From a virus: a stretch of 27,497 nt of DNA. Of the stretch, positions 3,468-23,982 are shown one piece after another. The position numbers and the translations under genes were made by a program. The notes beneath the pieces are model-generated. The model was not told where the DNA came from. It searched no databases and saw nothing but the letters and a program-made list of their open reading frames with translations. Location: the IMG/VR virus record IMGVR_UViG_3300017990_000051, positions 1-27,497 of that record; one strand, 5' to 3'. The number at the start of each line of letters is the position of its first letter. The first letter of the stretch is position 1.

Positions 3468-3470
3468 AGT

Positions 3471-5886: not shown

Positions 5887-5899
5887 GGAAAGAACATTT

Positions 5900-6625: not shown

Positions 6626-6661
6626 TCCATTTAATTAACCTACACATCTAGTGACACTATT

Positions 6662-7057: not shown

Positions 7058-7066
7058 AGTTAAAAT

Positions 7067-8044: not shown

Positions 8045-8054
8045 GCTAATTAAC

Positions 8055-8079
8055 GAGGGGGGAGGTACTCTCTCCCCTC
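8055..8079 (+). terminator. Strong hairpin after the capsid gene
   Basis: The purine arm GAGGGGGGAGG (8055-8065) pairs with the pyrimidine arm TCTCTCCCCTC (8069-8079) over up to 11 pairs, including two G-U pairs, leaving a loop of 3-5 bases. TTATACTTTTA follows. It looks like a rho-independent terminator or an attenuator that lets capsid mRNA accumulate. It fills the gap between capsid and the next gene. Confidence 0.65.
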
Positions 8080-8093
8080 TTATACTTTTACTT

Positions 8094-8576: not shown

Positions 8577-8591
8577 TAAAGTAAGCTACGT

Positions 8592-9269
8592 ATGAAAAAA
8601 CAACTACGGGCCTATGCTCCAGTATTACTCGGAGCATTAGCAATCGCGCTTGTAGCTACTGTTTCCTACGGTATAGCTCAGGAGTTACCACTCTCACCGA
8701 AGTCAGTAAACATCGAACATGTTGAGAACTTGACAATGGTTGTCAATGGTTCAGCAGACGATGCAATGGGCTTCACTGGTGGAGGTACGACTGGTTTAGA
8801 TACTCTAGCATTGACAGCAGACTTAACTGTTGCTGATGATGCTACAGTCGGAGATGAACTAACAATCGACGATGCAACTATTACTTGTGTTGACCAGACA
8901 ATGGCCGATGCAACGACTACAACTGTTGCTCTTCCTGCTACAGATCTATTTAGTTCTGGCAGCATGACAATTGTTAGTTTTACCTATAACCAAAATGGTG
9001 TTGCAACTTCTTCTGTTTCTTATGACTGCGGTGTAGCAGCAACTGCTTATACTTCATCTGACACTTTGATCGATGGATTAAGCGTTGCTACTTCTACTGC
9101 TGCTTATGAGACAGGAGACTACGGCACAAATGGTCGTATCAACCAAGCTCTTGACACTACCGAATATGTGACTTGTACTGCAACATTTACGAATGCTGCT
9201 TATGATGGTGCTTTACTTGATAATGATAACACTCATTCTGGTACTGCTACTGTCTGTGCAATTCAATAG
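8592..9269 (+). CDS. Exported Thr/Ser-rich protein with signal peptide
   Basis: This 225-residue protein has a textbook Sec-type signal peptide. MKKQLR is followed by a hydrophobic core (VLLGALAIALVATVSYGIA) and a likely cleavage after about residue 30 (IAQ/E). The mature part is acidic, rich in Thr, Ala and Ser, beta-like (LALTADLTVADDATVGDE), and carries four cysteines that could form two disulfides outside the cytoplasm. No lipobox is seen. Function is unknown; it may be a surface or fibre-like protein. Signal peptides are unusual among phage structural genes. Confidence 0.7.
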   Translation: MKKQLRAYAPVLLGALAIALVATVSYGIAQELPLSPKSVNIEHVENLTMVVNGSADDAMGFTGGGTTGLDTLALTADLTVADDATVGDELTIDDATITCVDQTMADATTTTVALPATDLFSSGSMTIVSFTYNQNGVATSSVSYDCGVAATAYTSSDTLIDGLSVATSTAAYETGDYGTNGRINQALDTTEYVTCTATFTNAAYDGALLDNDNTHSGTATVCAIQ

Positions 9270-9288
9270 ATACATAGCTTCAAGTTAA

Positions 9289-9329
9289 CAGAGGTCTGCC
9301 CACTCTTAGTTGGGTGGGCAGTCTCTCTG
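9289..9329 (+). terminator. Hairpin after the exported protein gene
   Basis: CTGCCCACTC pairs with GGGTGGGCAG (10 pairs, one G-U) around the loop TTAGTT, and outer CAGAG (9289-9293) can pair with CTCTG (9325-9329). No clear T-run follows, so it may be an intergenic RNA structure or processing site rather than an intrinsic terminator. Confidence 0.5.
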
Positions 9330-9338
9330 CAATTATCT

Positions 9339-9884
9339 ATGAGAACACTCCAAACAATACTCATAGCTTATATCGCAGTTGCAATCTCATTCTTCGTCTT
9401 GCCTTTCAATGTGACAGATGAAGGACTCGATCAAGGGTTTACTGGTGGTGCTATCAGTAATAAGAGAATCGCAACTGCGTCTGCTACAAGTACATACATC
9501 TACTTAGAACCAGAGACTTCATCGACGACTGATAATTATGTTACGTCTTATGATCTCGAATTTTCTACAGCTGATCTCGAAGGTTTCGATATGAGACTGA
9601 TCGCGATCGCAAGTACATCTGCAGAGATCGACTGGACATATTATTTTTCTGACGATGGAATTGATTGGTTCCCAGAAGATGGTACTACTGACTCATCTGA
9701 TGTAGCGATGTCGCATGGTGCTACTGCGTATGTTCATACATGGGTTCCAACAGCGGGCTCTGTTCAAATGCATAACACAAAATATCCAACATCGCCAGCA
9801 GAGAAGCTGAGGGCTAGATTTACTAAAGTAACATTCTCGACTGATGTAGCGAGTTCAACTCTCTACGCCGAGATCGTAAGATAA
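9339..9884 (+). CDS. Exported or anchored beta-rich protein
   Basis: This 181-residue protein begins with a hydrophobic segment at residues 5-25 (QTILIAYIAVAISFFVLPF) after one Arg, consistent with a signal peptide or signal anchor. The rest alternates hydrophobic strands and Ser/Thr/Asp loops (DWTYYFSDDGIDWFPEDGTT), like phage surface beta-sandwich proteins. No cysteine is seen. Its stop shares a base with the next start (TAATG). No family is recognised. Confidence 0.65.
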   Translation: MRTLQTILIAYIAVAISFFVLPFNVTDEGLDQGFTGGAISNKRIATASATSTYIYLEPETSSTTDNYVTSYDLEFSTADLEGFDMRLIAIASTSAEIDWTYYFSDDGIDWFPEDGTTDSSDVAMSHGATAYVHTWVPTAGSVQMHNTKYPTSPAEKLRARFTKVTFSTDVASSTLYAEIVR

Positions 9885-10183
9885 TGGCAATAGATAGATC
9901 AACGTATGACTCAGCAGCTTTCTCTGTAGCAAATGGTCAAACTAACAGAGATATCAAAGCTAATGAGGCATCAACATTTAACAATGTACCAGTCTATCGA
10001 AGACTTGAGTTACGAGTTGATGGTACAGTTACAATCAGACTCAGCTCAACTTCGAATGATGGTATTACAATTGGTGTCGAAGATAGTCCTTATGTTATTC
10101 CATTCGATGTAGAGGTAACAAACCTATATGTTACAAATGCATCTGGTGCAACTGTAAACATTAAACTACTCGGCACTGCATAG
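9884..10183 (+). CDS. Small beta-sandwich virion-like protein
   Basis: This 99-residue protein has no signal peptide. Short alternating strands run throughout (RRLELRVDGTVTIRLSSTSN, then FDVEVTNLYVTNASGATVNI), a pattern seen in small phage decoration or fibre-accessory proteins. I cannot assign a family. It overlaps the upstream gene by one base through TAATG, so translation is probably coupled. It is cytoplasmic by sequence, in contrast to its two upstream neighbours. Confidence 0.6.
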   Translation: MAIDRSTYDSAAFSVANGQTNRDIKANEASTFNNVPVYRRLELRVDGTVTIRLSSTSNDGITIGVEDSPYVIPFDVEVTNLYVTNASGATVNIKLLGTA

Positions 10184-10187
10184 ACTT

Positions 10188-11024
10188 ATGTCGAAGAAAG
10201 ATAAGCAAGATCGAGTCTATGAAGAATTAAATAGATCGATCAATAAAAAAGAAGTTCACCTCGAGAACTTACAGTCTCTCATCAAGGAGGCAGAAGAGGA
10301 AAAGACTTCTCTTGAAGAACAGATCCGTTCGAAGAGAGAAGTTAAAAGACATCTTAAAGCTGAGATTAAAGAGCTCGAGTCAAGTTTAAGTAATCTTGAG
10401 ACACAGTTTAGTCGAACTAAGTTAACTCAAGAGAATGAACTGACTCAACTAAAATCTGAGAGAGCAACGCTTAGTGATAAACATTTAGATCTCAAAAAAC
10501 GAATTGGAGAATTACGTCCGCAGGTTACTGAGAAGGAGAGAATACTTCAACGACTCAACGAGAAGATCACTGCCAAGAAAGATGAGCTAGCTATTCTTAA
10601 GAATCATCTTCAAACAGCAAGTACTCAACTCGAAAGCAGTCGTTCAAAGAATTCGTCTGTTTTAGAGAAAACATCGAATCTTCATGAAGAAGTAGCGATA
10701 CTTGAAGAAAAGATCTCTAAGAAGTCAGACTATCTCTTGTTCCTAAAAGAGAAGAAAGAAAAGAGACGCAAAGCAATCTCAAAACTTGAGAAGAAACGAG
10801 ACTCGATGTTAAAGGACGTCGAAGCACGAGAAAAGAAAGTTCGTAAGATTGAAGATGCTCTTGTCAAAAAAGAGAGTAGACTTGAACTCAAAGAAAAGAA
10901 ACTTGTTGCACGTGAAAAGAATCTTAAGCCGATCGAGGAAGGTCTAAAGCTTCGTGCAGCAGAACTCGATGACTTAGCTAAAGCTGTCAAAGCTAAAGAA
11001 AAAATAATTAAGATGAGACAATAA
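10188..11024 (+). CDS. Long coiled-coil protein
   Basis: This 278-residue protein is almost entirely Lys/Glu/Leu/Arg heptad-like sequence from about residue 10 to the end, such as SLEEQIRSKREVKRHLKAEI and KVRKIEDALVKKESRLELKE. It has no membrane segment, signal peptide or cysteine. It probably forms a long dimeric or trimeric rod. It could be a structural spacer, a fibre-assembly chaperone or an internal virion rod. Its place between surface and fibre genes fits the first two. It is too short and too purely coiled to be called a tape measure. Confidence 0.7.
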   Translation: MSKKDKQDRVYEELNRSINKKEVHLENLQSLIKEAEEEKTSLEEQIRSKREVKRHLKAEIKELESSLSNLETQFSRTKLTQENELTQLKSERATLSDKHLDLKKRIGELRPQVTEKERILQRLNEKITAKKDELAILKNHLQTASTQLESSRSKNSSVLEKTSNLHEEVAILEEKISKKSDYLLFLKEKKEKRRKAISKLEKKRDSMLKDVEAREKKVRKIEDALVKKESRLELKEKKLVAREKNLKPIEEGLKLRAAELDDLAKAVKAKEKIIKMRQ

Positions 11025-11025
11025 T

Positions 11026-11298
11026 ATGTTTGGTTCAAATCAAGCAGTTAAAGTTATAGATGGCGATGGAAACGTTTCTGTCGTCTCTGTAATTGCAGGT
11101 TACATTGCTTCAGAGATTGATGCAAGTTCGCCTGCTTACTACGGCTTTGAGAGACCTGATGGTGCATGGTATATCATGAAGGAGACTATCTCTGGCTCTG
11201 ATACTACTTACACGTTTGCAGCTGGTACATCTGGCTTTGCAACTGCATGGACTAACAGAGCGACTCAGTCGTATGATACTGTCTCAGCAACATTCTAA
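11026..11298 (+). CDS. Small protein ahead of the fibre gene
   Basis: This 90-residue beta-rich protein includes YYGFERPDGAWYIMKE around residues 38-53 and a Thr/Ser-rich C-terminus. It has no signal peptide. The stop-start junctions with both neighbours are short (TAATATG before it and a 4-base gap after it), which suggests joint translation with the fibre gene. A fibre chaperone or small tail-associated protein is possible; no family is recognised. Confidence 0.55.
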   Translation: MFGSNQAVKVIDGDGNVSVVSVIAGYIASEIDASSPAYYGFERPDGAWYIMKETISGSDTTYTFAAGTSGFATAWTNRATQSYDTVSATF

Positions 11299-11302
11299 GA
11301 TT

Positions 11303-13516
11303 ATGAGTAAACACTTTCAAGCGACAATGAGCGCTATCATCTGTCTTTACTCACTCTTCTTCATTGCTATCAGTGTACAAGCTGATTGGAGATTTAATCC
11401 TTTCACACAGAAATTAGATTACTATCAGCAAGACACAGCTGGTGCTGGTGCATTTGCAACTTCTTCAAGTTATGGTGTAAATCTTGTTTATCCAAATGGA
11501 GTAGCCGATGTTCTTATCATCGGTGGTACAGCTACAACTTCTAATGATGTAATCTTCGATGTTACTGGAGACAGTGAGTTTGACACAGCAAACTTTAGTG
11601 GTGCTGTAACACTCGGCTCAACTCTTAATGTTACTGGTAAGACAACTCTCTCGTATGGAACTTCTACTGCATTCACAGCCGATAACTTCTACGGTACTCT
11701 AACAGGTACTGCTTCTGGTAACTTGGAGAGTGCTGACATTGATACTCTTGTAGAACTTAATGCAATTCTTCTTGGAGAGACTCTTGCATCTACTACTACA
11801 ATAAGAGAGCCAGAGTATACTGCGTTAAATACTATTAGCGGTGCTACTTATGATGACCTCCAGGACTACATAAACAAAACAATGTCTTCTGGTAATGTTT
11901 CAGAGGTGGATATTACTGACAATGGAGATGGAACGGTAGCTGTTGACGGAGGGCAAGGTTATATCAGAGCTGATAGCGTATCAACCTCTACTCTTTACTC
12001 TTTTGACTGGTCTGCCTCAAGTTCTATGGATACGACTGATGACGCATTAAATTATGTTTATGTTGACTATAATAGTGGCTCGCCAAAGTTGGAATATACA
12101 ACGACATTATCTGGTTTAGACCATACCTCTCAATTTGTTGTTGGCTTGGTTTACCAGGAGGCAGCCGAAGCACATATCGCCGAAGCCGGACAGCAGTTAA
12201 ACAACGTTATTCATAATCTCTACTATTACCTTTGGGAGCATAACGGAATTGAACGGGCAAGTGGAGCAGTAACAAGCGAGGATGGGAGTGAGGACTTAAC
12301 ACTCAATATAAGTGCTGGCGTATTTTACTGGGCTTTGGAAAGAATAACTACCGCCGCTTTTGACAGCTCAACTGATGGCTCTGCTGATACCTTTGAATAT
12401 TTTTACCGAGACGGAGGTGGAGACTTTACTGCAAGCACTAGTTCTTGGGCATTAGAAACAGATGAATATGATGACGGAGACGGAACACCAGGTGCGGTTA
12501 CGGTTAATAAATACGGCACTCACTGGGTTTATATGACAATAGACGGAGATGTTTATGTTCAACTTGGTCAAGGAAATTACACTTTATCAGAGGCTTTAGC
12601 TGCCGAAAGACCAGCAACAATGGATGAATTGACGAATATTGGTATCTTTATTGCCAGAATAATTACACAAAATGGAGACGCTAATTTTATAGAGGTATCA
12701 ACTCCTTGGGGAACTGACCTCACTATTGAAGCTGCCACCGATCACGGAGACATGGCAGGGTTAACAGATGATGACCACACACAATACGGTGCTTTAGCTC
12801 AAGATGAAACAGTAACTGGAACCTGGACTTTTGGGAACGCCTCTACTACTAATTTAACGGCTACGAATATTTGGACAACCGACCTGGACGCTACAAACTT
12901 AACTGTTACTTATGCCTCTACTACTGGAATAACCGCTACGAATATATGGGCTACTACCTTTACTGGGGATTTGGTCGGAGATGTAACTGGAGATGTAACT
13001 GGCAACGCTGATACTGCTACTGCTTTAGCTGCTAACGGAGCTAATTGTAATGCTGGTGAATATCCCTTGGGTGTAGATGCTAGTGGGGCAGTAGAGAGTT
13101 GTACTGATGCGACCACAGAAATCAATAGCGAAATAGGCAATGTGCTTGATGGCACATATACTTTTACCGACTTTACTGGTAACGACATAATAGATACTGA
13201 TAACCTGAATTGGGGAAATTTTACAGACTTAGCAGAGGGCGGTGCAGTAAGCTGGGGAAATGTCGGCGCTGGCGAACTCGGTAATGATAGCGTAATTAAC
13301 GAGGATATAGATGATGATGGCGACTTTACATTTACTGGTGACTGGACATTTACCAATGCTTCTACTACTATCGGCAGTGCGACTGGTAGATTATTCGCTG
13401 ATGAGATAGAGGATATTACTGGCACAACTACGATACAGGATGCGGTTGAATTTACTGATGGCACTTATGGTTGTTACTTTGTATTCGGGGCTACTACTAC
13501 TTTAAAATGTTACTAA
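11303..13516 (+). CDS. Fibre-like protein with signal peptide, chimeric
   Basis: This 737-residue protein starts at ATG 11303, just after the previous stop; a longer frame beginning upstream would overlap that gene. Residues 1-24 form a signal peptide (hydrophobic IICLYSLFFIAISVQA, cleavage before DWRF). WRFNPFTQKLDYY follows it, then Thr/Ser/Gly beta repeats. DHGDMAGLTDDDHTQY at 480-495 is a motif common in phage tail fibres. Later repeats include TATNIW and GDVTGDVTG. The C-terminus has two cysteine pairs. Codon style changes near base 11880 (residue about 192), pointing to a native N-terminus joined to an acquired receptor-binding part. Confidence 0.75.
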   Translation: MSKHFQATMSAIICLYSLFFIAISVQADWRFNPFTQKLDYYQQDTAGAGAFATSSSYGVNLVYPNGVADVLIIGGTATTSNDVIFDVTGDSEFDTANFSGAVTLGSTLNVTGKTTLSYGTSTAFTADNFYGTLTGTASGNLESADIDTLVELNAILLGETLASTTTIREPEYTALNTISGATYDDLQDYINKTMSSGNVSEVDITDNGDGTVAVDGGQGYIRADSVSTSTLYSFDWSASSSMDTTDDALNYVYVDYNSGSPKLEYTTTLSGLDHTSQFVVGLVYQEAAEAHIAEAGQQLNNVIHNLYYYLWEHNGIERASGAVTSEDGSEDLTLNISAGVFYWALERITTAAFDSSTDGSADTFEYFYRDGGGDFTASTSSWALETDEYDDGDGTPGAVTVNKYGTHWVYMTIDGDVYVQLGQGNYTLSEALAAERPATMDELTNIGIFIARIITQNGDANFIEVSTPWGTDLTIEAATDHGDMAGLTDDDHTQYGALAQDETVTGTWTFGNASTTNLTATNIWTTDLDATNLTVTYASTTGITATNIWATTFTGDLVGDVTGDVTGNADTATALAANGANCNAGEYPLGVDASGAVESCTDATTEINSEIGNVLDGTYTFTDFTGNDIIDTDNLNWGNFTDLAEGGAVSWGNVGAGELGNDSVINEDIDDDGDFTFTGDWTFTNASTTIGSATGRLFADEIEDITGTTTIQDAVEFTDGTYGCYFVFGATTTLKCY
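12840..12949 (+). repeat. Degenerate fibre repeat
   Basis: CCTCTACTACT and CTACGAATAT recur at 12840-12874 and 12915-12949, encoding the ASTT ... TATNIW motif twice. The repeats are coding and reflect the repeated beta structure of the fibre shaft. Confidence 0.6.
12977..13000 (+). repeat. Perfect 12-bp tandem repeat
   Basis: GGAGATGTAACT occurs twice in tandem and encodes GDVT-GDVT. It lies in the fibre shaft and could change copy number by slippage without breaking the frame. Confidence 0.8.
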
Positions 13517-13665
13517 AATTTATAAAGAATAATAAACTTGAAATATGGCTGGTCTTAATATTTTTGTTCTGGGGATTTATAGTTTTTATGAACGAATTTT
13601 ATGATGGCAGGGTTGATTGTGAAAAGGTAAAAACAATACCAATAGATAATACTAAGTGCAAATAA
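13507..13665 (+). CDS. Small single-pass membrane protein
   Basis: This 52-residue protein has a basic N-terminus (LLKFIKNNK), one membrane segment (IWLVLIFLFWGFIVFM, about residues 12-27) and a short outer tail with two cysteines. ATG 13507 overlaps the last ten bases of the fibre gene; a longer frame upstream is less likely. Its role is unknown. It begins a run of membrane proteins whose codon use differs from the rest of the window. Confidence 0.55.
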   Translation: MLLKFIKNNKLEIWLVLIFLFWGFIVFMNEFYDGRVDCEKVKTIPIDNTKCK

Positions 13666-13666
13666 T

Positions 13667-13810
13667 ATGACACACAAATTGGAAAAACTTTATCGCAGGG
13701 TTTTAAAGTTAAAAACCCAAGCGGAAAAGGAGGGTGATGTTGATACAAGTGATGGTTTAGAAATTGTAAGCAGGGATATTGCTAGATTATATGCTATTCA
13801 AGACATTTGA
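13667..13810 (+). CDS. Small helical protein
   Basis: This 47-residue frame from ATG 13667 (one base after the previous stop) to TGA 13810 gives a charged helical protein with KLYRRVLKLKTQAEKEGDVD near the N-terminus. The start is preceded by TAAT and the end overlaps the LAB_N gene. Tight packing and a balanced composition argue for a real gene, but nothing identifies its function. Confidence 0.45.
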   Translation: MTHKLEKLYRRVLKLKTQAEKEGDVDTSDGLEIVSRDIARLYAIQDI

Positions 13811-14051
13811 TTGGTGGATAATTGTTGGCTTTTTAGCACAGGGATTATTCTTTTCAAGGACATTGATACAATGGTTAGCAATAGAAAAGGAAAAGCAAAT
13901 TGTTGTTCCCAAAATGTATTGGTGGCTTAGTATAATTGGCTCTGGGATATTACTCTTTTACTCATTTCACAGAAAAGATATTGTGTTCATTATCGGACAA
14001 ATTATTGCACTTATAATTTACATTAGGAGTTTAAAATTCTATGAAAAGTAA
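13791..14051 (+). CDS. LAB_N-domain membrane protein
   Basis: This 86-residue protein is nearly all a lipid-A-disaccharide-synthase N-terminal (LAB_N) domain. Three membrane segments are visible (about 8-27, 43-60 and 65-80), with the family's characteristic FFSRTLIQW, VPKMYWWLSIIGSG and DIVFIIGQ motifs. LAB_N occurs as a stand-alone small membrane protein near envelope and glycosyltransferase genes in many bacteria; its biochemical role is not settled. ATG 13791 is chosen; a TTG at 13779 would add four residues. Its last bases overlap the next start (ATGA). A LAB_N gene inside a phage late region is unusual and may affect the host envelope or superinfection. Confidence 0.8.
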   Translation: MLFKTFDWWIIVGFLAQGLFFSRTLIQWLAIEKEKQIVVPKMYWWLSIIGSGILLFYSFHRKDIVFIIGQIIALIIYIRSLKFYEK

Positions 14052-15408
14052 AAAATACATTTTAGGTGGAGCTTTGTCTGGAATAATTATTTCTGGTTGG
14101 TTTATTTTTGGGGGAGTTCCGAAATTAGGAATAGACCCCCCTGTTAATGAGGTATTAGAAGCGAGGAAAAGTAAGATTGTTGGGCAAACCATTATTAACA
14201 ATAAGTATGAAGATGGCAGTGAAGAAACTTGGGTTAAGTATTATTATGATACTGGAAAAGCTAACAAAGAAAAGAAAAAAATAAAAATTAAAGATAAAGA
14301 TGGTAAGAACATAGAGGTTGAGGTTGAGGAAGATTTTTCAAAGAAAACAAGTAATACATTTTGGTATTTAAAAGAAAAAACGACAACTACTACAATCTGG
14401 GTGATTGATATTGTCCCAGGTAGGCAATTTCGCAAGGTGGGTAATGATTGGCACAAAATTAAAAGTGCAACTACAACTCCAGGTCAATATGAGAAACAAA
14501 TCCTTGGTTATGGGCTTATAAGAAGAATGGTTAGTAGAAATGTCGCACTGGCTGACGATTTTTATTCTACTACTGGTGATGCTTTTTTCTTTCGTGGTGG
14601 TGCTACTGAAGCTTGGGATACAATTCGGACTGGTAATGGAACTGGTAATGAGGACGGATATTCAAGCAGGCAAGCTGCAAGAATACAAGCTCGGTCAACT
14701 GGAAGCAATTATAAAGTATTAGGCAGACCACAATTTGCCTTTGATACAAGTGCTTTAAGCGGAACAGTATCTGCCGCTACTTTTTCTGTAACAATATTGA
14801 ATGGGAGCATTGTTGGTGATGGAACTAGCCTTGGTGGTGTTGATTGGTATATCACAGATGGTGATATGGCTAACCCAGCCAGCCCCGCAAACTCAGACTT
14901 TGAAAGAGCTGCTGGTGAAGACATTCGTGATGCAGATGGTATTTTACACGGCGACCTTGATGATAGTGGAGATAGTGTAAATACTTGGACACTTGATAAT
15001 GATGGAAGCGATTATAGTTATATCAATCAAAGTGGAACAACACAATTAGCCATTCAAGCTGATTATGATGTAAATAATGCGGTTGCTGGCGACCCGACCT
15101 GGGAAGCTGATGGCTCAATAAATGAAACGATTTATTATGAGGAAAATGGGAGTAATTATCCAACACTAACAGTCACATTGGCTGCTACCGACACTTGCAC
15201 CCCCGATGGTGGTGACCACCAATTTAATGCTTCTGATAACTGCAATATTTATACTGATGTTTATGTCGAAGGCTCTTGTAACTTTTATTTGGACAGTGCT
15301 GGAGGAATAAATATCGGTGCAAAACTTGAATGTGAAGATGGCTGTTATATAGACCAGGGATTTAGTATTAACATAGGCTCTACTGGCAGCTTTATCTGTC
15401 AGCAATAA
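14041..15408 (+). CDS. Membrane-anchored surface protein, DNRLRE-like
   Basis: This 455-residue protein has an N-terminal membrane anchor (ILGGALSGIIISGWFIFGG, about residues 7-25) and a charged stalk. It then has a beta-rich region from about residue 170 to 380. GRPQFAFDTSALSGTVSAAT and, later, NETIYYEENGSNYPTLTVTL match the layout of DNRLRE-type beta-sandwich domains on bacterial surface proteins ('RFDLS.L...V.SA.L', then 'E......P.L.V'). The C-terminus holds six cysteines in about 70 residues. It is probably displayed outside the cell. It overlaps the LAB_N gene by 11 bases. Codon use is AT-rich and unlike the flanking phage genes. Confidence 0.65.
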   Translation: MKSKKYILGGALSGIIISGWFIFGGVPKLGIDPPVNEVLEARKSKIVGQTIINNKYEDGSEETWVKYYYDTGKANKEKKKIKIKDKDGKNIEVEVEEDFSKKTSNTFWYLKEKTTTTTIWVIDIVPGRQFRKVGNDWHKIKSATTTPGQYEKQILGYGLIRRMVSRNVALADDFYSTTGDAFFFRGGATEAWDTIRTGNGTGNEDGYSSRQAARIQARSTGSNYKVLGRPQFAFDTSALSGTVSAATFSVTILNGSIVGDGTSLGGVDWYITDGDMANPASPANSDFERAAGEDIRDADGILHGDLDDSGDSVNTWTLDNDGSDYSYINQSGTTQLAIQADYDVNNAVAGDPTWEADGSINETIYYEENGSNYPTLTVTLAATDTCTPDGGDHQFNASDNCNIYTDVYVEGSCNFYLDSAGGINIGAKLECEDGCYIDQGFSINIGSTGSFICQQ

Positions 15409-15425
15409 TAATTAAACACGATGTT

Positions 15426-15635
15426 ATGCAAGACAAAATTTGGTACAAAAGCGCCTCACTACAAGGCAATATCGTAGTGGTGCTAGGTATGTTAATTAAA
15501 TGGCTGGGCTTGCCAGTGCTTCAAGACGAAGTAACTGCCATTGTTTCGGCTTTATTCGTATTAATTGGCGTTGGCTACGCTATCTGGGGTCGGGTTAAGA
15601 CCAAAGGCGAGCCTATCGGCTGGAGGATTAAATAA
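15426..15635 (+). CDS. Holin-like two-pass membrane protein
   Basis: This 69-residue protein begins QDKIWYKSASLQGNIVVVLG and has two membrane helices (about 14-32 and 37-53) followed by AIWGRVKTKGEP. The pattern 'WY.S...G.IV... TAIVSALFVLIGVGYAIWGR' is typical of a common family of small phage membrane proteins annotated as holins or holin-like. A holin would form the membrane lesion that times lysis. Two more membrane genes follow at once, as in a lysis cassette. No endolysin is recognised nearby. Confidence 0.65.
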   Translation: MQDKIWYKSASLQGNIVVVLGMLIKWLGLPVLQDEVTAIVSALFVLIGVGYAIWGRVKTKGEPIGWRIK

Positions 15636-15724
15636 TGAGTAAACTTAATGAAATCCTGTTAGTGATATTGCTCTCCTTGTTTACTGGAATCGTAGGAGGG
15701 ATAATTGCTCTGGGTTTAATATAA
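15635..15724 (+). CDS. 29-residue membrane peptide
   Basis: ATG 15635 shares a base with the preceding stop (TAATG) and GGAGG (15622-15626) lies 8 bases upstream. The peptide is a single hydrophobic helix (ILLVILLSLFTGIVGGIIAL) after MSKLNE. It is below usual gene-calling limits. Spacing of two bases to the next gene and the SD site argue it is translated. It may be a holin partner or antiholin. Confidence 0.5.
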   Translation: MSKLNEILLVILLSLFTGIVGGIIALGLI

Positions 15725-15726
15725 AT

Positions 15727-16032
15727 ATGGGGGAAAAAACAAAACAACTGTTAAAAGACTATTCTTTTCACATAAGCGTAACCAGTATTGTATTGATAGC
15801 CAGCTTTCTAATTAGTACAGGTATTGGCTATGAAAAGATGCAAGCTAAAATAAAACACATTGACGGCAAGACTGACCTATACGCAGAACGCTGGGAACAG
15901 ATAGAAAGGCGAGTCGATAATAACGAAAAGCAAATTGAACTACATTATCTCGAGATCATTACACGCTTAAAGAGTCTAGAGACAAGCGGTCAAGAGATTA
16001 AACAGCTCATAAGAGAACACGACATAAACTAA
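15727..16032 (+). CDS. Membrane-anchored coiled-coil protein
   Basis: This 101-residue protein has one N-terminal membrane helix (VTSIVLIASFLISTGIGY, about residues 18-35) followed by a charged helical domain with heptad-like spacing (WEQIERRVDNNEKQIELHYL). It closes a three-gene membrane cassette and may act in lysis or envelope contact. Its layout recalls membrane-anchored coiled-coil lysis accessories, but a spanin call is not supported because no lipobox or partner is seen. Native-style GATC sites reappear at its end (15954). Confidence 0.55.
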   Translation: MGEKTKQLLKDYSFHISVTSIVLIASFLISTGIGYEKMQAKIKHIDGKTDLYAERWEQIERRVDNNEKQIELHYLEIITRLKSLETSGQEIKQLIREHDIN

Positions 16033-16035
16033 ACG

Positions 16036-16043
16036 AAGGAGGT
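16036..16043 (+). promoter_or_regulatory. Strong Shine-Dalgarno site for the HNH gene
   Basis: AAGGAGGT lies 5 bases before a TTG start. It supports TTG 16049 as the true start and marks the switch to an SD-led cassette. Confidence 0.8.
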
Positions 16044-16048
16044 AAACA

Positions 16049-16294
16049 TTGAAAACAAAGACAAAGAAGTATGGGTTTTGTCCACGGTGTAGAACAAAAA
16101 CAAATCTCGAAGCTCACCACATCTTTCCGCGAAAGTATTTTGGTCAGGGTTTATCAAATCCGTTCACAGTCTTATTATGTCCAACGTGCCATCAAGAGAT
16201 CGGTGTCTATGTTCATGACACACCAAAGTTTTCGATCGAACAATATGCAGTAATCACTTGGAAGTTTATCAGAAGGGAACGAATTAATCTCTGA
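16049..16294 (+). CDS. HNH endonuclease (small)
   Basis: This 81-residue protein starts at TTG. CPRC (11-14) and CPTCH (44-48) form a zinc site; HH at 23-24, Asn 37 and His 48 form the HNH-type core (LEAHHIFPRKYF ... N ... LCPTCHQE). Phage HNH enzymes nick DNA and often work with terminase in packaging, or act as homing nucleases. Here it is far from terminase and heads a cassette of tiny zinc proteins, so a homing or accessory role is as likely. Its TGA overlaps the SD site of the next gene. Confidence 0.85.
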   Translation: MKTKTKKYGFCPRCRTKTNLEAHHIFPRKYFGQGLSNPFTVLLCPTCHQEIGVYVHDTPKFSIEQYAVITWKFIRRERINL

Positions 16295-16304
16295 AGGAGG
16301 AAGA

Positions 16305-16466
16305 ATGAATTGTCCAGTATGTAAGCACACGCTGTGTCTTGTTAGAGAAGACTTATACAAATGTCCGTGGTGCGATCTGATGTTAGATCGACCAAAAGAA
16401 GAATATAAAAGGAAAGGAGGATGCGATGAGAAAAACATGTCCAAGCTGCGGCAACTTGATGAGTAA
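16305..16466 (+). CDS. Zinc-ribbon mini-protein 1
   Basis: This 53-residue protein has GAAGGAGG (16293-16300) just before ATG 16305. CPVC (3-6) and CPWC (20-23) form a two-knuckle zinc ribbon; the tail is charged. It overlaps the next gene by 41 bases in another frame. It could bind nucleic acid or a protein partner. It is too short for usual gene calling. Confidence 0.55.
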   Translation: MNCPVCKHTLCLVREDLYKCPWCDLMLDRPKEEYKRKGGCDEKNMSKLRQLDE

Positions 16467-16548
16467 GGATGGCAGGTATTATATCTGTCCATACTGCGGA
16501 ACAAGAATACTCGACTTAAGTCAGAGGAGGAACGATGCAAAAACTTAA
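16426..16548 (+). CDS. Zinc-ribbon mini-protein 2
   Basis: This 40-residue protein has AAAGGAGG (16413-16420) 5 bases before ATG 16426. CPSCG (5-9) and CPYCG (21-25) form a classic zinc ribbon with GRYYIC between. It overlaps both neighbours. The paired CxxC spacing resembles that of mini-protein 1, suggesting duplication and divergence. Confidence 0.6.
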   Translation: MRKTCPSCGNLMSKDGRYYICPYCGTRILDLSQRRNDAKT

Positions 16549-16648
16549 ACTCTTCAGTGCAATTCTATTGATGAGTATTTTGTTTCTCATCGTTCTTATT
16601 CTAAACAGGTTTTGTCCACGCCTAACAGACAGGCTTCTCGGTTTGTAA
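16535..16648 (+). CDS. 37-residue membrane peptide
   Basis: AGAGGAGG (16523-16530) precedes ATG 16535. The peptide has a basic start (MQKLK), one membrane helix (LFSAILLMSILFLIVLIL) and a basic tail. It overlaps the zinc-ribbon gene by 14 bases. Its role is unknown; small phage membrane peptides often affect lysis or superinfection. Confidence 0.5.
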   Translation: MQKLKLFSAILLMSILFLIVLILNRFCPRLTDRLLGL

Positions 16649-16659
16649 GGAGGTGATAG

Positions 16660-16851
16660 ATGAGACGATGGTATTGCCATGACTGTGTTTATTACGATCG
16701 ATGTAATCAATCGAAGACGACTAAACCTGTTCGAATCGAAAGTTGTGGCTACCATTGTCATAGATTTTATAACCCGCAGGCTTTCGAGTTCTGGGAGCTA
16801 TACTATGAAGACCTTCGACTTGGACGAGGTTTAGAACCAGATGAAGATTAA
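16660..16851 (+). CDS. Cys-rich mini-protein
   Basis: This 63-residue protein has a strong SD (AAGGAGGT, 16647-16654) starting inside the previous stop codon. Cysteines at 6, 9, 15, 29 and 33 plus nearby histidines (GYHCH) suggest a zinc- or metal-bound core; the C-terminal half is acidic and aromatic (FEFWELYYEDL). Family not recognised. It ends the SD-led cassette and is followed by two hairpins. Confidence 0.6.
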   Translation: MRRWYCHDCVYYDRCNQSKTTKPVRIESCGYHCHRFYNPQAFEFWELYYEDLRLGRGLEPDED

Positions 16852-16877
16852 CATACTCCTTCGTTGTTCTTTGAAAG

Positions 16878-16902
16878 CCATGGCTAATTTGCATTAGCCT
16901 GG
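16878..16902 (+). terminator. Hairpin 1 after the mini-protein cassette
   Basis: GGCTAAT (16882-16888) and ATTAGCC (16893-16899) pair perfectly around TTGC; CCA and TGG extend the stem past a one-base bulge, giving 10 pairs. No T-run follows directly, but a second hairpin does. Confidence 0.55.
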
Positions 16903-16904
16903 TA

Positions 16905-16930
16905 GGGGGAGACAAATGTAGCTCTCCCTC
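16905..16930 (+). terminator. Hairpin 2, terminator-like
   Basis: GGGGGAGA (16905-16912) pairs with TCTCCCTC (16923-16930) over 8 pairs with one G-U, and TTTAATTAATT follows. The purine/pyrimidine arms resemble the hairpin after the capsid gene, suggesting a shared terminator style in this phage. Confidence 0.6.
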
Positions 16931-16952
16931 TTTAATTAATTAAGTCTTAAAT

Positions 16953-18029
16953 ATGTTGCGAAGACTTATCTACAACTTGATGCATTGGAACAGCAAACCT
17001 GGCGGACTTGTTCTTGAGTCTGTCGGCGATGGTGCTTCTCCGAAGTTCGCTCGATACAGAGAAATCTTTGCGGAAGAGCTATTCGGCTATCAGCCAGTAA
17101 AGACACTGGGAAGGGCGAGAGCTATTATGAAGCATCCAAGCTATCCTAGAAACTTAGCGTTTCAAGATAGCATTCTTTCATGCGTTCCATCTTCACTTTG
17201 TGAACTTAAACAATTCTACCTAGATTGGGAGCTATACTTTACATGGAGATGGCCATACGGTAATGTCAGACACTTTAACGGTGGTACTCGTTTCAAAGAT
17301 ATCATGAGAGTCTGTCAAAGAGGTATGCTTCTCGATGTCAGATTACCTACTTCTCAATTCTGGGGAGGTGAAGCAAGAATGCAAACTGTACATCTTTATC
17401 GAGATGGTCGTTGGCATAAAGCTACAAAAGAAGAACTTGATGATCTTGCTAAAGCAGCAGACGACTTTGAGTTAGGTTCTTGGTCGTATGTCTATTATAA
17501 AGATCGAACAGCAATGAAGCATGCTTTACAGAAAGCTCCAATTCCAGTTGGTCTTTGGATCCAGAAAGGTAATTGGCATTCTTGGAAAGACACTAACAGA
17601 AAGATATATTGGGACACTACTCGTTCAGGCAATTGGGCACACCTCGTTCTAATGGTCGATTGGGACGATGACCTTGGTGGGTGGTGGATCACAGATCACG
17701 ATGGTAGTGGTCTAAAATTGTTAGACTATAACTACCCGCTTGTCTTTGCTGCATCAGTTAGTGATGGCAAGTCGGGAGAAGACAATCCTATGCTTCGAGT
17801 AATTAAACTCGCAGACAAGTCTGAATACTATGTCGTATTTACAGACAACACAAAAGCGCACATCCCAGAGTGGGAACTCTTTATCTGGGGAGCGAAGAAA
17901 GGAATTTGGGTTCCTAACGACAAGGTCGAAGTTGTTAGAGAAGATGAATTCAATACAATTCAAACAGACGATGAGAGTAAACATCTCTTCGAGATTATGA
18001 ACGCTTATCATAACTCTCATAAGAAGTAA
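16953..18029 (+). CDS. Papain-like cysteine peptidase
   Basis: This 358-residue protein matches the papain (C1) active-site pattern. Gln 71 and Cys 77 keep the exact six-residue spacing of the oxyanion-hole Gln and nucleophile (QDSILSC). His 230 lies in AHLVLMVDWDD, the usual 'HAV..VGYD' site. Asp 248 in WWITDHDG stands where papains have Asn in 'NSWG'. The fold order is therefore complete, with Asp replacing Asn. No signal peptide is seen. It may process head or internal virion proteins or ride in the virion to cut host surface protein; its place between lysis-type and tail genes does not decide. No SD; T at -1. Confidence 0.7.
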   Translation: MLRRLIYNLMHWNSKPGGLVLESVGDGASPKFARYREIFAEELFGYQPVKTLGRARAIMKHPSYPRNLAFQDSILSCVPSSLCELKQFYLDWELYFTWRWPYGNVRHFNGGTRFKDIMRVCQRGMLLDVRLPTSQFWGGEARMQTVHLYRDGRWHKATKEELDDLAKAADDFELGSWSYVYYKDRTAMKHALQKAPIPVGLWIQKGNWHSWKDTNRKIYWDTTRSGNWAHLVLMVDWDDDLGGWWITDHDGSGLKLLDYNYPLVFAASVSDGKSGEDNPMLRVIKLADKSEYYVVFTDNTKAHIPEWELFIWGAKKGIWVPNDKVEVVREDEFNTIQTDDESKHLFEIMNAYHNSHKK

Positions 18030-18032
18030 ACT

Positions 18033-19220
18033 ATGTCTTTAACTTACACAAACCTTGACACTGCATTACAGAACATGATTGGCTCAAGAGCAAACATCAA
18101 AGCTGATAGCAATACTCGCTATGAGACATTTGATCGAGTTCTTGATGATCTCTCATTAGAAGCTAACTGGAGGTTTGCTATACGTAGAACAACTCTTGAT
18201 TATCTTAGAGACGTTGATGCATACAGTCTTACGAACTATCTTGGTCTCTCTGACTTCAAAGCTCCTTATGAGTTAGGTGGTCTACCATTCTTAGAAGATC
18301 GTAGTTTTTATCCACAACGACGCAAGAAGGTACGTCGCAAATCAAATCTTACAGCAGACTCTACATTCCAAAGATTAAGTACAGAGTATGTCGATGGAGA
18401 ACATTATCTGTTAGTAAACATTGCTGATGGACAATCTTTTCAGATTGATGCTCTAGAGAATCTCTCATCTGATGGAGCATGGTCTGCAGTCGGAGATGGT
18501 TCATCTCTTGCAGTTGATGAGAATGAGTATGAGCAAGGCGCTGGTTCATTAAAGTTTCGAGGTACTGTCGCAGGTGGAAATAACTATGCAGGTATTCAGA
18601 ACACAACGAAGACTGCAATCGATCTATCTGACTATGAAGACCGAGCATACTTTCTGCTTCGAGTCTATCTCCCAACAATCACTGACTTTACAAGTGTGAC
18701 TCTTTTCTGGGGATCTGATACTTCGAACTATTGGTATAAGACTGTGACAGCTCCATTGAACAAGACAGCTTTCATTACTGGTTGGCAACAATTAGCCTTC
18801 CGCTGGGAGGATGCTTCAAGTTCTGGTTCACCAGATGATGAGAACGTTGATTACTTTGAGATCAGATTTAATTATGCTACAGGCTTTGCAGACAATCAAC
18901 TCTTCAGAGCAGATGATCTTAGAATTAACGAGAGAGTACAACTTGAGTTTGATTACTTTTCTCGCTATCTTGTTAAGTCAGCTGCAGGCGAATGGAAGAA
19001 GTCATTCTCAACTGGTACAGACTTATTTGTCGGTCCAGATGATTGCGAAGTAGCATTGCTTGAGATGGCATATTATGATCTGCTACGTACGAACAGACGC
19101 GTTGATAAAGCTACACGCTCAGAAGCACTTACTAGGTATAACATATACAGAGCTAAGATGAAACATAACTACGGTTATAGTATCTCCAAAGGACCTCGCA
19201 AGGTAAACATACTACGTTAA
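18033..19220 (+). CDS. Head-tail adaptor with inserted beta-sandwich
   Basis: This 395-residue protein has helical ends that fit a gp4/gp11-type adaptor ring of short-tailed phages. The N-terminal part (TNLDTALQNMIGSR...FDRVLDDLSLEANWRF) and the C-terminal part (DCEVALLEMAYYDLLRTNRR) would dock under the portal. Residues about 140-299 are a beta-rich insertion (YEQGAGSLKFRG ... TGWQQLAFRWED ... FRADDLRI) with the layout of galactose-binding or carbohydrate-binding jelly rolls. Typical adaptors are much shorter. The hub follows after one base, which supports the call. The adaptor assignment is from architecture, not a detected family. Confidence 0.6.
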   Translation: MSLTYTNLDTALQNMIGSRANIKADSNTRYETFDRVLDDLSLEANWRFAIRRTTLDYLRDVDAYSLTNYLGLSDFKAPYELGGLPFLEDRSFYPQRRKKVRRKSNLTADSTFQRLSTEYVDGEHYLLVNIADGQSFQIDALENLSSDGAWSAVGDGSSLAVDENEYEQGAGSLKFRGTVAGGNNYAGIQNTTKTAIDLSDYEDRAYFLLRVYLPTITDFTSVTLFWGSDTSNYWYKTVTAPLNKTAFITGWQQLAFRWEDASSSGSPDDENVDYFEIRFNYATGFADNQLFRADDLRINERVQLEFDYFSRYLVKSAAGEWKKSFSTGTDLFVGPDDCEVALLEMAYYDLLRTNRRVDKATRSEALTRYNIYRAKMKHNYGYSISKGPRKVNILR

Positions 19221-19221
19221 T

Positions 19222-21006
19222 ATGTCCAGAATAATACAGCGCAAAAATTTCCTCGGTTTGCATACAAGATACCCGGTGACGAAGAACCATCCAGAGTCTG
19301 CATTTGTTGCTCATAATATGAAGATCACTGGACACGGTGTTGAGCCAATCAAAGGCTTCTCTCGTTTCGGTCAAGAATCTCCAGCAAATCTTCAAAAGAT
19401 CAAAGACGCTTATACGTTTATTCTGCAGGATGGAACACAGATACCTGTCAGAGTAAGAGAAAGACCAGCGTCTGGCGATAATGTACTTGAATGGTATTCA
19501 ACAGACTCAGGTAGATGGGAGATCCTCCTGACTGGAATGACGCAAGGAGCAACGACTTCTTTCCAAGACTATAACACAAGTACGATCAATCAGTTATTCT
19601 TTGGAAACGGAAACGAGTATTACTCTGTCTGGTCTGGCAATACTACTTATTTAACTGCTGCTTTAAGTGGAGGAGAGACAGATGTTCTTGTTAACAGTAC
19701 AGCTGGCTTTCCTGCTTCTGGTACAATCATCTACAATGGTACAGAGATTGCTTATTCTTCTAAGACAGCTACGAAGTTCGTTGTTGCATCTGCACATGCA
19801 TCATCTGATACAGATGATCCTGTGGCTGAAGCTGTGGACGATGCTACTTATTCTGGCGTTGCTCTTAGCAGTATTCTACTCTCTGCTCAGAATCGAATGT
19901 GGGTTGTTGACGCAGGAGATCCAAACTCACTCGAGTACTCAGTCGAGGGTGATGCAACTGATTGGACATCAGGCAATAATAGAGCCGATGCAGGAGTCGA
20001 GGATTTTCCCATCGTTGGTGGAAAGATCACAGGTCTTGCAAATCAAGACTCATACATCTTCATCTTCAAAGAACGAACGATAATTCTATTTGAATGGCAA
20101 TATCCGACAGCAACGACAAAGACTCCAAGCTTCAAGCATATTGTTACAGCAGGCTCAATTGGTGCAATCAATCACAAAGGTATTGCAAGTATCTATAACG
20201 AGATCCTTTATACAGCACCTGATGGAGTACGAAGTTTATCTCGTAACATTGCAACGAATGATTGGAATGCAGACCCGATCTCTGATGAGATCAAAACAAC
20301 GATCGACGGTTATGACTTCTCTGAAGCAGCATCAATTTATTATGCGAAGGAGGATGTCTATCTTGTAGCTTGTAAATCAGACTCAGATCAGACAAACAAT
20401 AACAAAGTCATCGCGATCTGGTATTACGTTGGTACAGATGGGAAAAGACAGCGAGGCTTCTCAATTCTTGATTGGACAGTCGATAGCTGGTTCATTTATA
20501 ACAATGAACTCTACTTTGGTTCTTCGATGGAAGGAGCAACGTATAAAGCTTTCACTGGTCACACTCGTGGAGGAGCAGCAATGAGATCTATCTATACAGA
20601 CAACAGAAACGACTTCGGAGCAAAGAACTTAAAGGAAGCAGAGTCATATCTGATCATGGGTTTAATCGCACCTGGTACAGAGATTGACGTGTCATTCTTT
20701 TATGACGGTGGTGCTTCTGGTAGTCAGCAGATTACGATCGATGCTGCTGATGATTATGTTCAGTCTTCTGCAGTCAAGACACTCGGTGCTTTCAAGTTAG
20801 GAGAGCAAGTCTTAGGTGGAACACTCGATGCAGTCGAGGAACTTCGGCTATTCACAGTAATAGTCGAGTTACAAAAGATACAATGGTATGACCTCCAAGT
20901 CCAGCGTATCTGTGGTACAAAAGGAGGTTACTATAAAATATTTTTTGAAGGTATCATCAATCCAGGTGAAGGCTTTGATCTACCTCAAGACACATTAGAA
21001 GGTTAA
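19222..21006 (+). CDS. Tail hub/nozzle-like protein
   Basis: This 594-residue beta-rich protein follows the adaptor gene. Its layout fits the short-tail hub or nozzle (P22 gp10 or T7 gp12 role): an N-terminal FLGLHTRYPVTKNHPESAFV region, a repeated beta-propeller-like core (DSYIFIFKERTIILFEWQYP, then EILYTAPDGVRSLSRN) and a C-terminal beta domain. Residues about 141-212 look like an inserted small beta domain (TAGFPASGTIIYNGTEIAYS) common in phage fibres. No signal peptide or cysteine pairs. Call rests on order and fold impression. Confidence 0.65.
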   Translation: MSRIIQRKNFLGLHTRYPVTKNHPESAFVAHNMKITGHGVEPIKGFSRFGQESPANLQKIKDAYTFILQDGTQIPVRVRERPASGDNVLEWYSTDSGRWEILLTGMTQGATTSFQDYNTSTINQLFFGNGNEYYSVWSGNTTYLTAALSGGETDVLVNSTAGFPASGTIIYNGTEIAYSSKTATKFVVASAHASSDTDDPVAEAVDDATYSGVALSSILLSAQNRMWVVDAGDPNSLEYSVEGDATDWTSGNNRADAGVEDFPIVGGKITGLANQDSYIFIFKERTIILFEWQYPTATTKTPSFKHIVTAGSIGAINHKGIASIYNEILYTAPDGVRSLSRNIATNDWNADPISDEIKTTIDGYDFSEAASIYYAKEDVYLVACKSDSDQTNNNKVIAIWYYVGTDGKRQRGFSILDWTVDSWFIYNNELYFGSSMEGATYKAFTGHTRGGAAMRSIYTDNRNDFGAKNLKEAESYLIMGLIAPGTEIDVSFFYDGGASGSQQITIDAADDYVQSSAVKTLGAFKLGEQVLGGTLDAVEELRLFTVIVELQKIQWYDLQVQRICGTKGGYYKIFFEGIINPGEGFDLPQDTLEG

Positions 21007-21007
21007 T

Positions 21008-22447
21008 ATGAGAAAACTAATTCCAAGTCTTTGTGTAATATTCCTTCTAACAGCGACATCTGTTAATGCAACGCTCTGGGACTTCTTTCAAGGTAATCTA
21101 CCTTCGATCAAAGAACGAGCAGAGTATTACTCGCAGATCGCTGACGATGAGTATACTGGTACTTATGACCAGAATGTCTTATTGGAAGAATACTTACGCA
21201 ATCCTTACTCTGACGCATTCGGTGCAGTCAAACCCTTCCGGCCATCTGGGTTCTCGACTACACTTGCATCTTCGCTAGCAGAGGGAGGAACAGAGACAAC
21301 ACTGGTAGTTAACTCTATCACTCTCCCAGACGGAACTTCGTTAGCTTCAACATCGTTCGGAGATCTATTGATCTTGACAGTTGGAGAGGGAGACGGCGAA
21401 GAAAAGATAGCTGTGAATGATCTTAATCAAAGTACGAAGACATTCACAATTTATTCAAGAGGCCTAGAGTATGGTCGATGGGCTTCTTCATCTGCAAATA
21501 TTCTTCAGCATCTTCCAGGTGAGATCGTCTACGTTTCAGACGACGATCATTTTCTAAATCAACAATACTTTGATCTAGAGTCTGATCAGACAGTCTCAGG
21601 AAGTAATACGTTCTCAGGTACAAATACATTCTCAGGGAATACAACGTTCTCTGGTACAATTACAATACCTGAGCCGACTGCAGACTCTCATGCTGCATCG
21701 AAGAACTATGCTGACAATATTGCAAATCAAGGCGCAGCAACTTCGACAGAGACAGTTGCAGGTATATGTGAACTAGCTACAGAAGACGAAGCTGCAGCAA
21801 GTACATATCTTGGACTAAACAGCCCGTTGTGCTTACAGGCAAGAGATGCTTCATCTTCTCCTTCAATCTCAGACAATATGATTGTTGTAACTGAGTCAGA
21901 TGGTAAGATCAACCAGGGTTTTCTAGATTTAACAGAAGACTTTGCATTTACTGGAAACACAGCAATGACAAACATGGACGTTGCTTCTTCAACATTTACA
22001 GCAACAACGACATTTGAGAATGCTCCAAGTATCGAAGAAGACCCGGCGTATAATAACGACGCTGTTAGGAAAAGCTATGCTGACAGTACATATACGACGA
22101 AACATTACATCTCTGCTTTCGATGAACCAAGTTGTGGTAATAGTTGTTATACTGCTCAAACATTTGCTCACGGTTTTGGAGTAACACCAGACCACATTAC
22201 TCTGCACTGTCACAGTGAAGGAGCAACTGCAAATAGTTCATCTGGGTTTTATGATGGATCGACGATGTTTGTCGCATCAACAGTCTCTGGTTCAAGTAAT
22301 GATTATGTTGTTCAATGCGGCGATAACGGCAACGACTATACTGCAAGCTCAACACTCGATGCAACAAACATTACTCTGAAGTGGTGGAACGATGCTGATG
22401 CGAGTGGTCAAGCAATTAACTGCTTCCTTGAAGCTTGGGTTTACTAA
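21008..22447 (+). CDS. Tail fibre-like protein with signal peptide
   Basis: This 479-residue protein has a clear signal peptide (MRKLIPSLCVIFLLTATSVNA, cleavage before TLWDF). Residues 83-180 resemble the beta insertion of the preceding hub gene (TTLVVNSITLPDG). Then come three NTFSGT-type repeats (200-217), PTADSHAASKNYADN as a fibre-neck motif, and a beta-rich C-terminal domain with several cysteines (PSCGNSCY). These features match a tail fibre, yet the signal peptide would export it. It follows the hub by one base. Start has no strong SD; AAGG lies 5 bases upstream. Confidence 0.7.
   Translation: MRKLIPSLCVIFLLTATSVNATLWDFFQGNLPSIKERAEYYSQIADDEYTGTYDQNVLLEEYLRNPYSDAFGAVKPFRPSGFSTTLASSLAEGGTETTLVVNSITLPDGTSLASTSFGDLLILTVGEGDGEEKIAVNDLNQSTKTFTIYSRGLEYGRWASSSANILQHLPGEIVYVSDDDHFLNQQYFDLESDQTVSGSNTFSGTNTFSGNTTFSGTITIPEPTADSHAASKNYADNIANQGAATSTETVAGICELATEDEAAASTYLGLNSPLCLQARDASSSPSISDNMIVVTESDGKINQGFLDLTEDFAFTGNTAMTNMDVASSTFTATTTFENAPSIEEDPAYNNDAVRKSYADSTYTTKHYISAFDEPSCGNSCYTAQTFAHGFGVTPDHITLHCHSEGATANSSSGFYDGSTMFVASTVSGSSNDYVVQCGDNGNDYTASSTLDATNITLKWWNDADASGQAINCFLEAWVY
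21605..21658 (+). repeat. Three 18-bp tandem repeats
   Basis: Copies at 21605-21622, 21623-21640 and 21641-21658 encode NTFSGT, NTFSGN and TTFSGT. They lie in the fibre shaft and keep frame, so copy number could vary without loss of function. Confidence 0.8.
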
Positions 22448-22458
22448 CTAGAATAACT

Positions 22459-23979
22459 ATGGCAAAGAAAATCAAATCACAAACTCTTGCAGATGGTGGC
22501 ATCAAACAAATCTTTGATGATGGCACAGAAGCATTCGTTGCATTTACTGACAAGCCGTATTCTGGTAGTAACTTTCAATATCTGAAGAACCCAACAACTG
22601 GTAAGTCAGTCGGAGTCTCAAAAAGTTCTTCTTCAGAATATCTACAAGCTCTATCAGATGAACTCGGCTTTGTTCCAGTTGATCCGTCAGACGTTGGTAA
22701 AGCAATTGAGTCTACAGTAGGAGACTCTGCTGGCGAAGGTGTTGCAGGAGATGGTACAAATCTACCATCGAGCATTGATATCGATACAGACATCCCAGAC
22801 ATTACGTCGTCAGATGTCTTTACTTCGAGAGAAGAGTTTGAGTCAAGACTCGAGACAGAGACTCAATCAATTGAAGACCGGATTGCAGCAGAAGAAGATA
22901 AGAAGAGACAGCTGATCATGGATCGCTTTGCTCCATTGATTGCTGAAGCAGAAGAGTATCGTGAAGACATCACTGATGCAACAGAAGGTCAATTTGCTAC
23001 GAAGAGACGTCTCTCTACGGCTGCACTCTCTTTTGTACAACATCAGAGAGGTCAAGCACAGAAGAAAGTAGATGAGATCGTTAGTGCAAGAGAACAAGCA
23101 CTAGCACAACTTGATCTCACGATGGCTGACAAGCTACAGAAGGAGATCGATGCTTGGAAAGATCAAGAGTTCAAATGGGCTCAGTTTGAGTTGCAATTAC
23201 AAACAACTCAGTTCCAGCAAGCAATGTCAGTAGCTGGACTGAAGCTTGATTTAAAAGCAGATCAGAGAGCTGAGCAATCTCAACTCTTTGACATTGTTAC
23301 AAAGAAGTATGACATCATCAAAGATATTCCAGAAGGTGAGACTGTCACAATTGATGGTATGACTTTCACAGGAATTGCAGGTGGTGCATCTGATCCTTTC
23401 TTTACAGGATCAAACATTGTCTCACTAATGAAGAGTCTTCCGCAAGGTGAGACTACAACAATTACAGATCCCAATACTGGGAGAGAGTTTACTTTAACTG
23501 GTTTAGCTTCAACGATCGTTACAGCAACAGATGACTCTGGGAATGTCACTGGTATCAACAAGAATACTGGTGAAGAACTCTGGCGAGTCGCTGGTGCAGG
23601 CAAGACAAAGTCGTCTGGTCCAAGTACAACGATCTATATGAACGACCAGATGAAAGGTGCTTTAGGTGATGCTTCGGCAGTCCTCGAGGCTTCGAAGGGC
23701 GACGATGGATTTTATAATACTGAGACTTTTAGGAATGAGCGACTTAAGTTTGCTCAAACAACTGGAGGAGATACATCAACATTCGATGATACATTCAGAC
23801 GCGGTCTCAATCCAAACGATCCATCTGCTAAGATCTACTTCAGTAAGTCTGAGTTAGAGGTAGCCTCCGATGTCTGGACCGAAGAAACAAGAGCGTTCTT
23901 TAAAGATCTCGACTTTACAGACGAAGAGATCGCAGCATGGGAATCTCTTGGCTTATCACCGCAAGACCTTATGCAATAA
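22459..23979 (+). CDS. Internal virion protein candidate
   Basis: This 506-residue protein starts at ATG 22459 after the previous stop. It has a low-complexity N-terminal third, then a long helical coiled-coil region (residues about 125-270) rich in Gln, Glu, Ala and Lys (KDQEFKWAQFELQLQTTQFQ), and a Gly/Thr-rich region with GETVTIDGMTFTGI-type repeats around 310-360. A large helical protein between the tail genes and a giant protein fits an ejection protein that crosses the envelope at infection. No family is recognised. Confidence 0.55.
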   Translation: MAKKIKSQTLADGGIKQIFDDGTEAFVAFTDKPYSGSNFQYLKNPTTGKSVGVSKSSSSEYLQALSDELGFVPVDPSDVGKAIESTVGDSAGEGVAGDGTNLPSSIDIDTDIPDITSSDVFTSREEFESRLETETQSIEDRIAAEEDKKRQLIMDRFAPLIAEAEEYREDITDATEGQFATKRRLSTAALSFVQHQRGQAQKKVDEIVSAREQALAQLDLTMADKLQKEIDAWKDQEFKWAQFELQLQTTQFQQAMSVAGLKLDLKADQRAEQSQLFDIVTKKYDIIKDIPEGETVTIDGMTFTGIAGGASDPFFTGSNIVSLMKSLPQGETTTITDPNTGREFTLTGLASTIVTATDDSGNVTGINKNTGEELWRVAGAGKTKSSGPSTTIYMNDQMKGALGDASAVLEASKGDDGFYNTETFRNERLKFAQTTGGDTSTFDDTFRRGLNPNDPSAKIYFSKSELEVASDVWTEETRAFFKDLDFTDEEIAAWESLGLSPQDLMQ

Positions 23980-23982
23980 TTT

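Follow-up and report, generated by a model that had tools for sequence, protein, structure and literature searches.

Five mini-genes packed into 0.8 kb of an uncultivated phage are each preceded by a near-perfect SD sequence, in a genome that otherwise starts nearly all of its genes without one. Our preferred reading, to which we give a probability of roughly 0.5, is that they form a horizontally gained accessory cassette that keeps SD-driven starts in an SD-independent phage. It appears to lie among the late genes, with a lysis-like module on one side and a structural gene on the other.

The window, as the analysed DNA is called here, takes in all 27,497 bases of a linear virus record from IMG/VR. 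Besides the features listed below, it holds genes for tail and fibre proteins and, in addition, a very long C-terminal ORF. Another record, G003, matches the window at 99.98% identity across 1-13287 and at 100% across 19173-27497; it carries the replication half, with PolB, primase-helicase, thymidylate synthase, UDG, and exonuclease. The window and the early half carried by G003 make up the composite genome used here, which the two sequences imply would be about 46.1 kb long, comparable with the relatives G006, G008, and G009 (45.8-46.6 kb). The final ORF of the window (23983-27497) is a portion of a 2,117-codon gene in G003 (G003 29081-35431). In the list, SD values are SD:anti-SD duplex energies in kcal/mol, and T-led means T at position -1.

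1869: terminase gene, from its match to phrog_2
3471: portal-like gene
7067: capsid gene, phrog_371
15426..16032, + strand: left flank, putative lysis module with holin-like 15426 and transmembrane/coiled-coil 15727, both T-led (weak Pfam/PHROG holin and XhlA matches)
15635..15724, + strand: sixth SD-led ORF, 29-aa membrane peptide within the lysis-like module (SD -9.3)
16036..16043, + strand: SD of the HNH gene, GAAGGAGGT (-11.7)
16049..16294, + strand: HNH mini-protein, 81 aa, TTG start, with HH...N...H and two CxxC pairs (PF01844 and PHROG HNH families); upstream GAAGGAGGTAAACA
16305..16466, + strand: zinc-ribbon-like mini-protein CPVC...CPWC, 53 aa, ATG start, below every family cut-off (SD -12.1); upstream GAAGGAGGAAGA
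16426..16548, + strand: zinc ribbon CPSC...CPYC, 40 aa, ATG start, PF13248 (SD -11.9); upstream AAAGGAGGATGCG
16535..16648, + strand: membrane peptide with a single hydrophobic helix, from its sequence MQKLKLFSAILLMSILFLIVLILNRFCPRLTDRLLGL, 37 aa, ATG start (SD -11.9); upstream GAGGAGGAACG
16660..16851, + strand: Cys-rich protein CHDC...C...C...CH, 63 aa, ATG start (SD -10.6); upstream TAAGGAGGTGATAG
16877..16932, + strand: pair of adjacent hairpins, with CTTTAATTAATTAAG after the second one (MFE -27.1, z -2.55)
16953..18029, + strand: right flank, T-led gene whose G006 homologue directly follows the lysis-like pair

The original prediction described five small genes with an SD-like site each, and its coordinates and features proved correct, with duplex energies of -10.6 to -12.1 kcal/mol. 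Duplexes of -7 kcal/mol or stronger precede 5/5 cassette starts and 3/54 other starts of the composite genome (Fisher P = 1.1e-5), the 54 being curated starts from the window and the G003 early half, including 13507 and 13791. Those three are 1154, whose start is uncertain, 15635, which adjoins the cassette on its upstream side, and G003 15390. Among + strand start codons that open at least 35 codons, a 6-base SD core is found at five of nine in the cassette and at 3/437 in the rest of the window. The bases at -1 are A, A, G, G, and G in cassette order; T, which had been claimed alongside A and G, occurs at none of the five, compared with 38/54 starts elsewhere (P = 0.004). The contrast drawn between these genes and the structural genes is real, but it extends further: the cassette stands apart from the entire SD-independent genome, including its early replication genes.

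T-led, SD-independent starts are the norm throughout this uncultivated phage group (whole window; L025-L041). In the composite genome, the non-T starts among the 54 mostly overlap an upstream stop codon or adjoin it. Structure is weaker around SD-less starts than at random positions (-2.7 vs -5.1 kcal/mol, P = 8e-9), and G is scarce there (0.16 vs 0.225). For the relatives, we counted the first ATG in every ORF of 100 aa or more, chosen blind to the -1 base, and compared it with later ATGs in frame. T(-1) was in excess at P < 0.05 in seven of nine records from other species (G006, G007, G008, L008, L005, L017, and L018), in five of the seven at P < 0.01; L010 gave P = 0.07, and G009 showed no excess and is exceptional in having A at -3. 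SD-like sites at starts lie at about the level seen at later ATGs in most of the relatives' records. Leaderless transcripts with a -10 box were considered as the source of T(-1) and rejected, as the positional counts showed no sign of them.

Low structure and scarcity of G at starts are published features of SD-less initiation (PMC5397173, PMC3121790). SD-scarce Bacteroidetes, cyanobacteria, and some archaea share with the phage genome-wide SD-less starts and unstructured, G-poor leaders (PMC5397173, PMC10783764); unlike them, the phage has T(-1) as its dominant signal, found at only 14/37 starts in the Bacteroidota loci fetched. In a Roizmanbacteria (CPR) genome, Prodigal assigned the ribosome-binding motif TAA to 353/946 ORFs (PMC6509639). 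This SD-less motif resembles the TAA-(N)-T-ATG starts of the phage, a likeness of motif to a single published genome and not a host link.

We suggest that the phage normally initiates without SD pairing, from unstructured, G-poor RNA and mostly at U-AUG, with the U at -1 probably pairing with A37 of the initiator tRNA. Such extended codon-anticodon initiation, in which U at -1 pairs with A37, was reportedly described by Esposito et al. in 2003 (cited in PMC9841429); the phage shares with it the UAUG context at SD-less starts. Other SD-less starts, which overlap or abut a stop codon, may be reached by re-initiation. The cassette genes, in turn, would recruit ribosomes individually via strong SDs retained from a donor that uses them, probably a different phage in the same host pool, which fits the phage-like codon usage of the cassette. 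All five are presumably co-transcribed on the late message, with the transcript ending at the hairpin pair.

The composition of the cassette is ordinary. Its GC is 0.403 vs a mean of 0.414 (23rd percentile of 803-bp windows), its GC3 0.38 vs 0.37, and its synonymous codon score -1.066 vs a mean of -1.068. Foreign composition as proof of import is thus rejected, and the lack of any sign of recent import counts against horizontal gain, for which the sample is also small (five genes) and no donor was found. If the cassette was imported, either the donor shared the codon environment of the phage or the import is old.

SD use does not follow protein type, since the early zinc-ribbon mini-genes G003 14628, 15070, 17930, and 24828 are T-led. 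An SD as a trait of zinc-ribbon or HNH mini-genes was likewise rejected, since the other examples in the phage and in its relatives have no SD. G003 15390, the other gene of the phage with a clean SD, is a member of phrog_1933 and at most 58% identical to Listeria phage genes; its relatives occur in 185 phage records, mostly from Mycobacterium, Listeria, Arthrobacter, and Microbacterium phages. This one example supports the view that the SD-led genes here derive from an SD-using gene pool.

Selection, rather than descent from such a pool, might also maintain the SDs, giving these tiny genes starts that are uncoupled from adjacent genes, or a timing or level of initiation different from that of the SD-less bulk, for instance upon accessibility of the host anti-SD. 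An SD on every cassette gene and on neighbouring 15635 suggests a set that is kept together, and the phage-like composition fits long residence. Moreover, G006 carries an adjacent pair of SD-led mini-ORFs at another genome position (22529 and 22650; L026:2729-2987), the second with CxxC...CxxC. Other tiny genes of the phage, zinc ribbons too, are nonetheless T-led without an SD, the neighbour 15727 is T-led, and the cassette has no evident promoter of its own; we regard a selected expression class as possible, though doubtful. We also consider, as an unlikely case, two initiation codes in one lineage, with U(-1)AUG for the core and SD for small accessory genes, where the start signal sorts expression, for example via ribosomes that differ in anti-SD accessibility.

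Among the relatives, only G006 has a syntenic junction, in the order fibre, holin-like, XhlA-like, 16953 homologue, and 18033 homologue. Between its XhlA-like gene and its 16953 homologue lie 3 nt, where the window holds the 0.9-kb cassette. The 16953 gene and its homologue are 26-30% identical over 335-345 aa; the lysis-like genes of G006 are without sequence similarity to those of the window, so the comparison is one by position. Searches of phages, plasmids, and viral contigs did not find the cassette as a unit, none of its products is convincingly related to proteins of the phage group, and the whole 13.5-16.9 kb block is without homologues there. Two matches were set aside. In G007, a match to 16660 (E 0.006) falls within the portal region, lacks the Cys pattern, and was taken as chance, and the HNH match in L046 (44%) is a lone T-led gene of another phage, without the cassette. 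Universal conservation in place, which the original prediction named as contrary evidence, is therefore not what we see: the cassette is missing from G006, the sole relative with both flanks in order, its products are without convincing relatives in the group, and the two kinds of start do differ. Because a single relative keeps the junction, and the whole 13.5-16.9 kb differs in it, the cassette may equally have been lost from G006 or gained in this phage. Nor is the distribution of SD-led genes significantly patchier than that of other genes up to 110 aa long.

Loss would make the cassette an old resident block, whose SDs record the state of an older SD-using lineage and not a recent gain. 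The match in composition and the coverage of the junction by one relative only are consistent with such a remnant. However, SD-like sites are near background in the relatives, which would call for an SD-using ancestor that left no other trace, and none of the relatives holds a cassette homologue; we judge this reading improbable.

A gap of 17 nt separates the start of the cassette from the stop codon before it. No promoter of its own is evident: promoter-like sites at 13400-19300 number 25 vs 16.7 +/- 4.8 in shuffled sequence, and the sigma-70 consensus may not apply. The two hairpins proposed as its end are present at 16877-16932, but they are not specific to the cassette, because a hairpin of similar type also stands behind the capsid gene (8055-8085); another strong hairpin follows the 8592 gene (9290-9325). 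Like the morons of lambdoid and other tailed phages, the cassette consists of small non-structural accessory genes between late genes, is missing in a relative, and is followed by a hairpin. The classical definition of a moron includes an own promoter and a different base composition; here the promoter was not found and the base composition is not different. The resemblance of an SD-led accessory cassette in an SD-independent phage to a moron-type unit is thus partly supported: presence/absence fits, and composition does not. Of the separate origin first proposed, the absence from G006 and the different start grammar speak in favour; GC, GC3, codon usage, and the promoter search do not. The different expression programme proposed as its alternative may still apply.

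Cys/His metal-site patterns occur in four of the five products, in agreement with the claim that four are cysteine-rich or zinc-binding. The HNH product passes the curated cut-off of PF01844 (23.5 bits, cut-off 21.4), and the catalytic HH...N...H residues are present (AHHIFP...SNPF...CPTCH). The 16426 product passes that of Zn_Ribbon_3 PF13248 (28.7 bits, cut-off 27), with a weak Lar-like match to phrog_6422 (7e-5). No Pfam family exceeds its cut-off for the 16660 product; its match to the TscT toxin (PF07342) scores 20.9 bits, below the curated cut-off of 27. Structure prediction, suggested for each mini-protein, was run for the HNH and Cys-rich products and gave unusable models: the single-sequence HNH model has a pLDDT of 58, and a PDB fold search with it returned no match at E <= 0.001, while the 16660 model is unreliable at pLDDT 49. 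Our guess is that the products most probably act in host takeover or in excluding competitors. It is hardly credible that some frames are not genes, with the GGAGG repeats having another role or arising by chance in a purine-rich stretch: codon statistics are positive, in frame, for the HNH gene only, and frames overlap at 16305/16426 and 16426/16535, but the other four frames are too short and Cys-rich for such statistics to decide, SD spacing is correct five times vs 3/437 start codons elsewhere, the HNH and zinc-ribbon matches exceed curated cut-offs, and synonymous codon use in the cassette is phage-like.

If horizontal gain of an SD-led cassette is right, the start signal tells an accessory block and the resident genome apart where base composition fails, and could mark accessory gain on short contigs from SD-poor lineages of phages. 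SD-led and SD-independent starts could then be compared on a single natural transcript. The group-wide T(-1) pattern offers a testable handle on SD-less start choice and on the hosts of these uncultivated phages.

Other parts of the window also deserve mention. L002 (99.97% identical) and G003 both stop exactly at window 13287, and G003 picks up again at 19173; this hints at strain variation with a variable 5.9-kb block around the cassette, a point in favour of the preferred reading, although contigs may also end for other reasons. A small protein at 13791-14051 matches LAB_N, the lipid A biosynthesis N-terminal domain, at 91 bits, which is unusual for a phage. The nearest LAB_N matches found are from Bacteroidota (45-48% identity); a Bacteroidota host was not adopted, given this identity and the lack of a clear T(-1) there. 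The fibre-like protein at 11303-13516 has STTNLTATN-type repeats, which we take to resemble Parcubacteria surface proteins. A portal tblastn against phages gave no match, as did Rfam and tRNA scans. Finally, the exact repeat AATTAACTCTCGC occurs at L037:13961-13973 and 16351-16363, just 5' of early genes, along with three weaker copies, and is a possible early promoter element.
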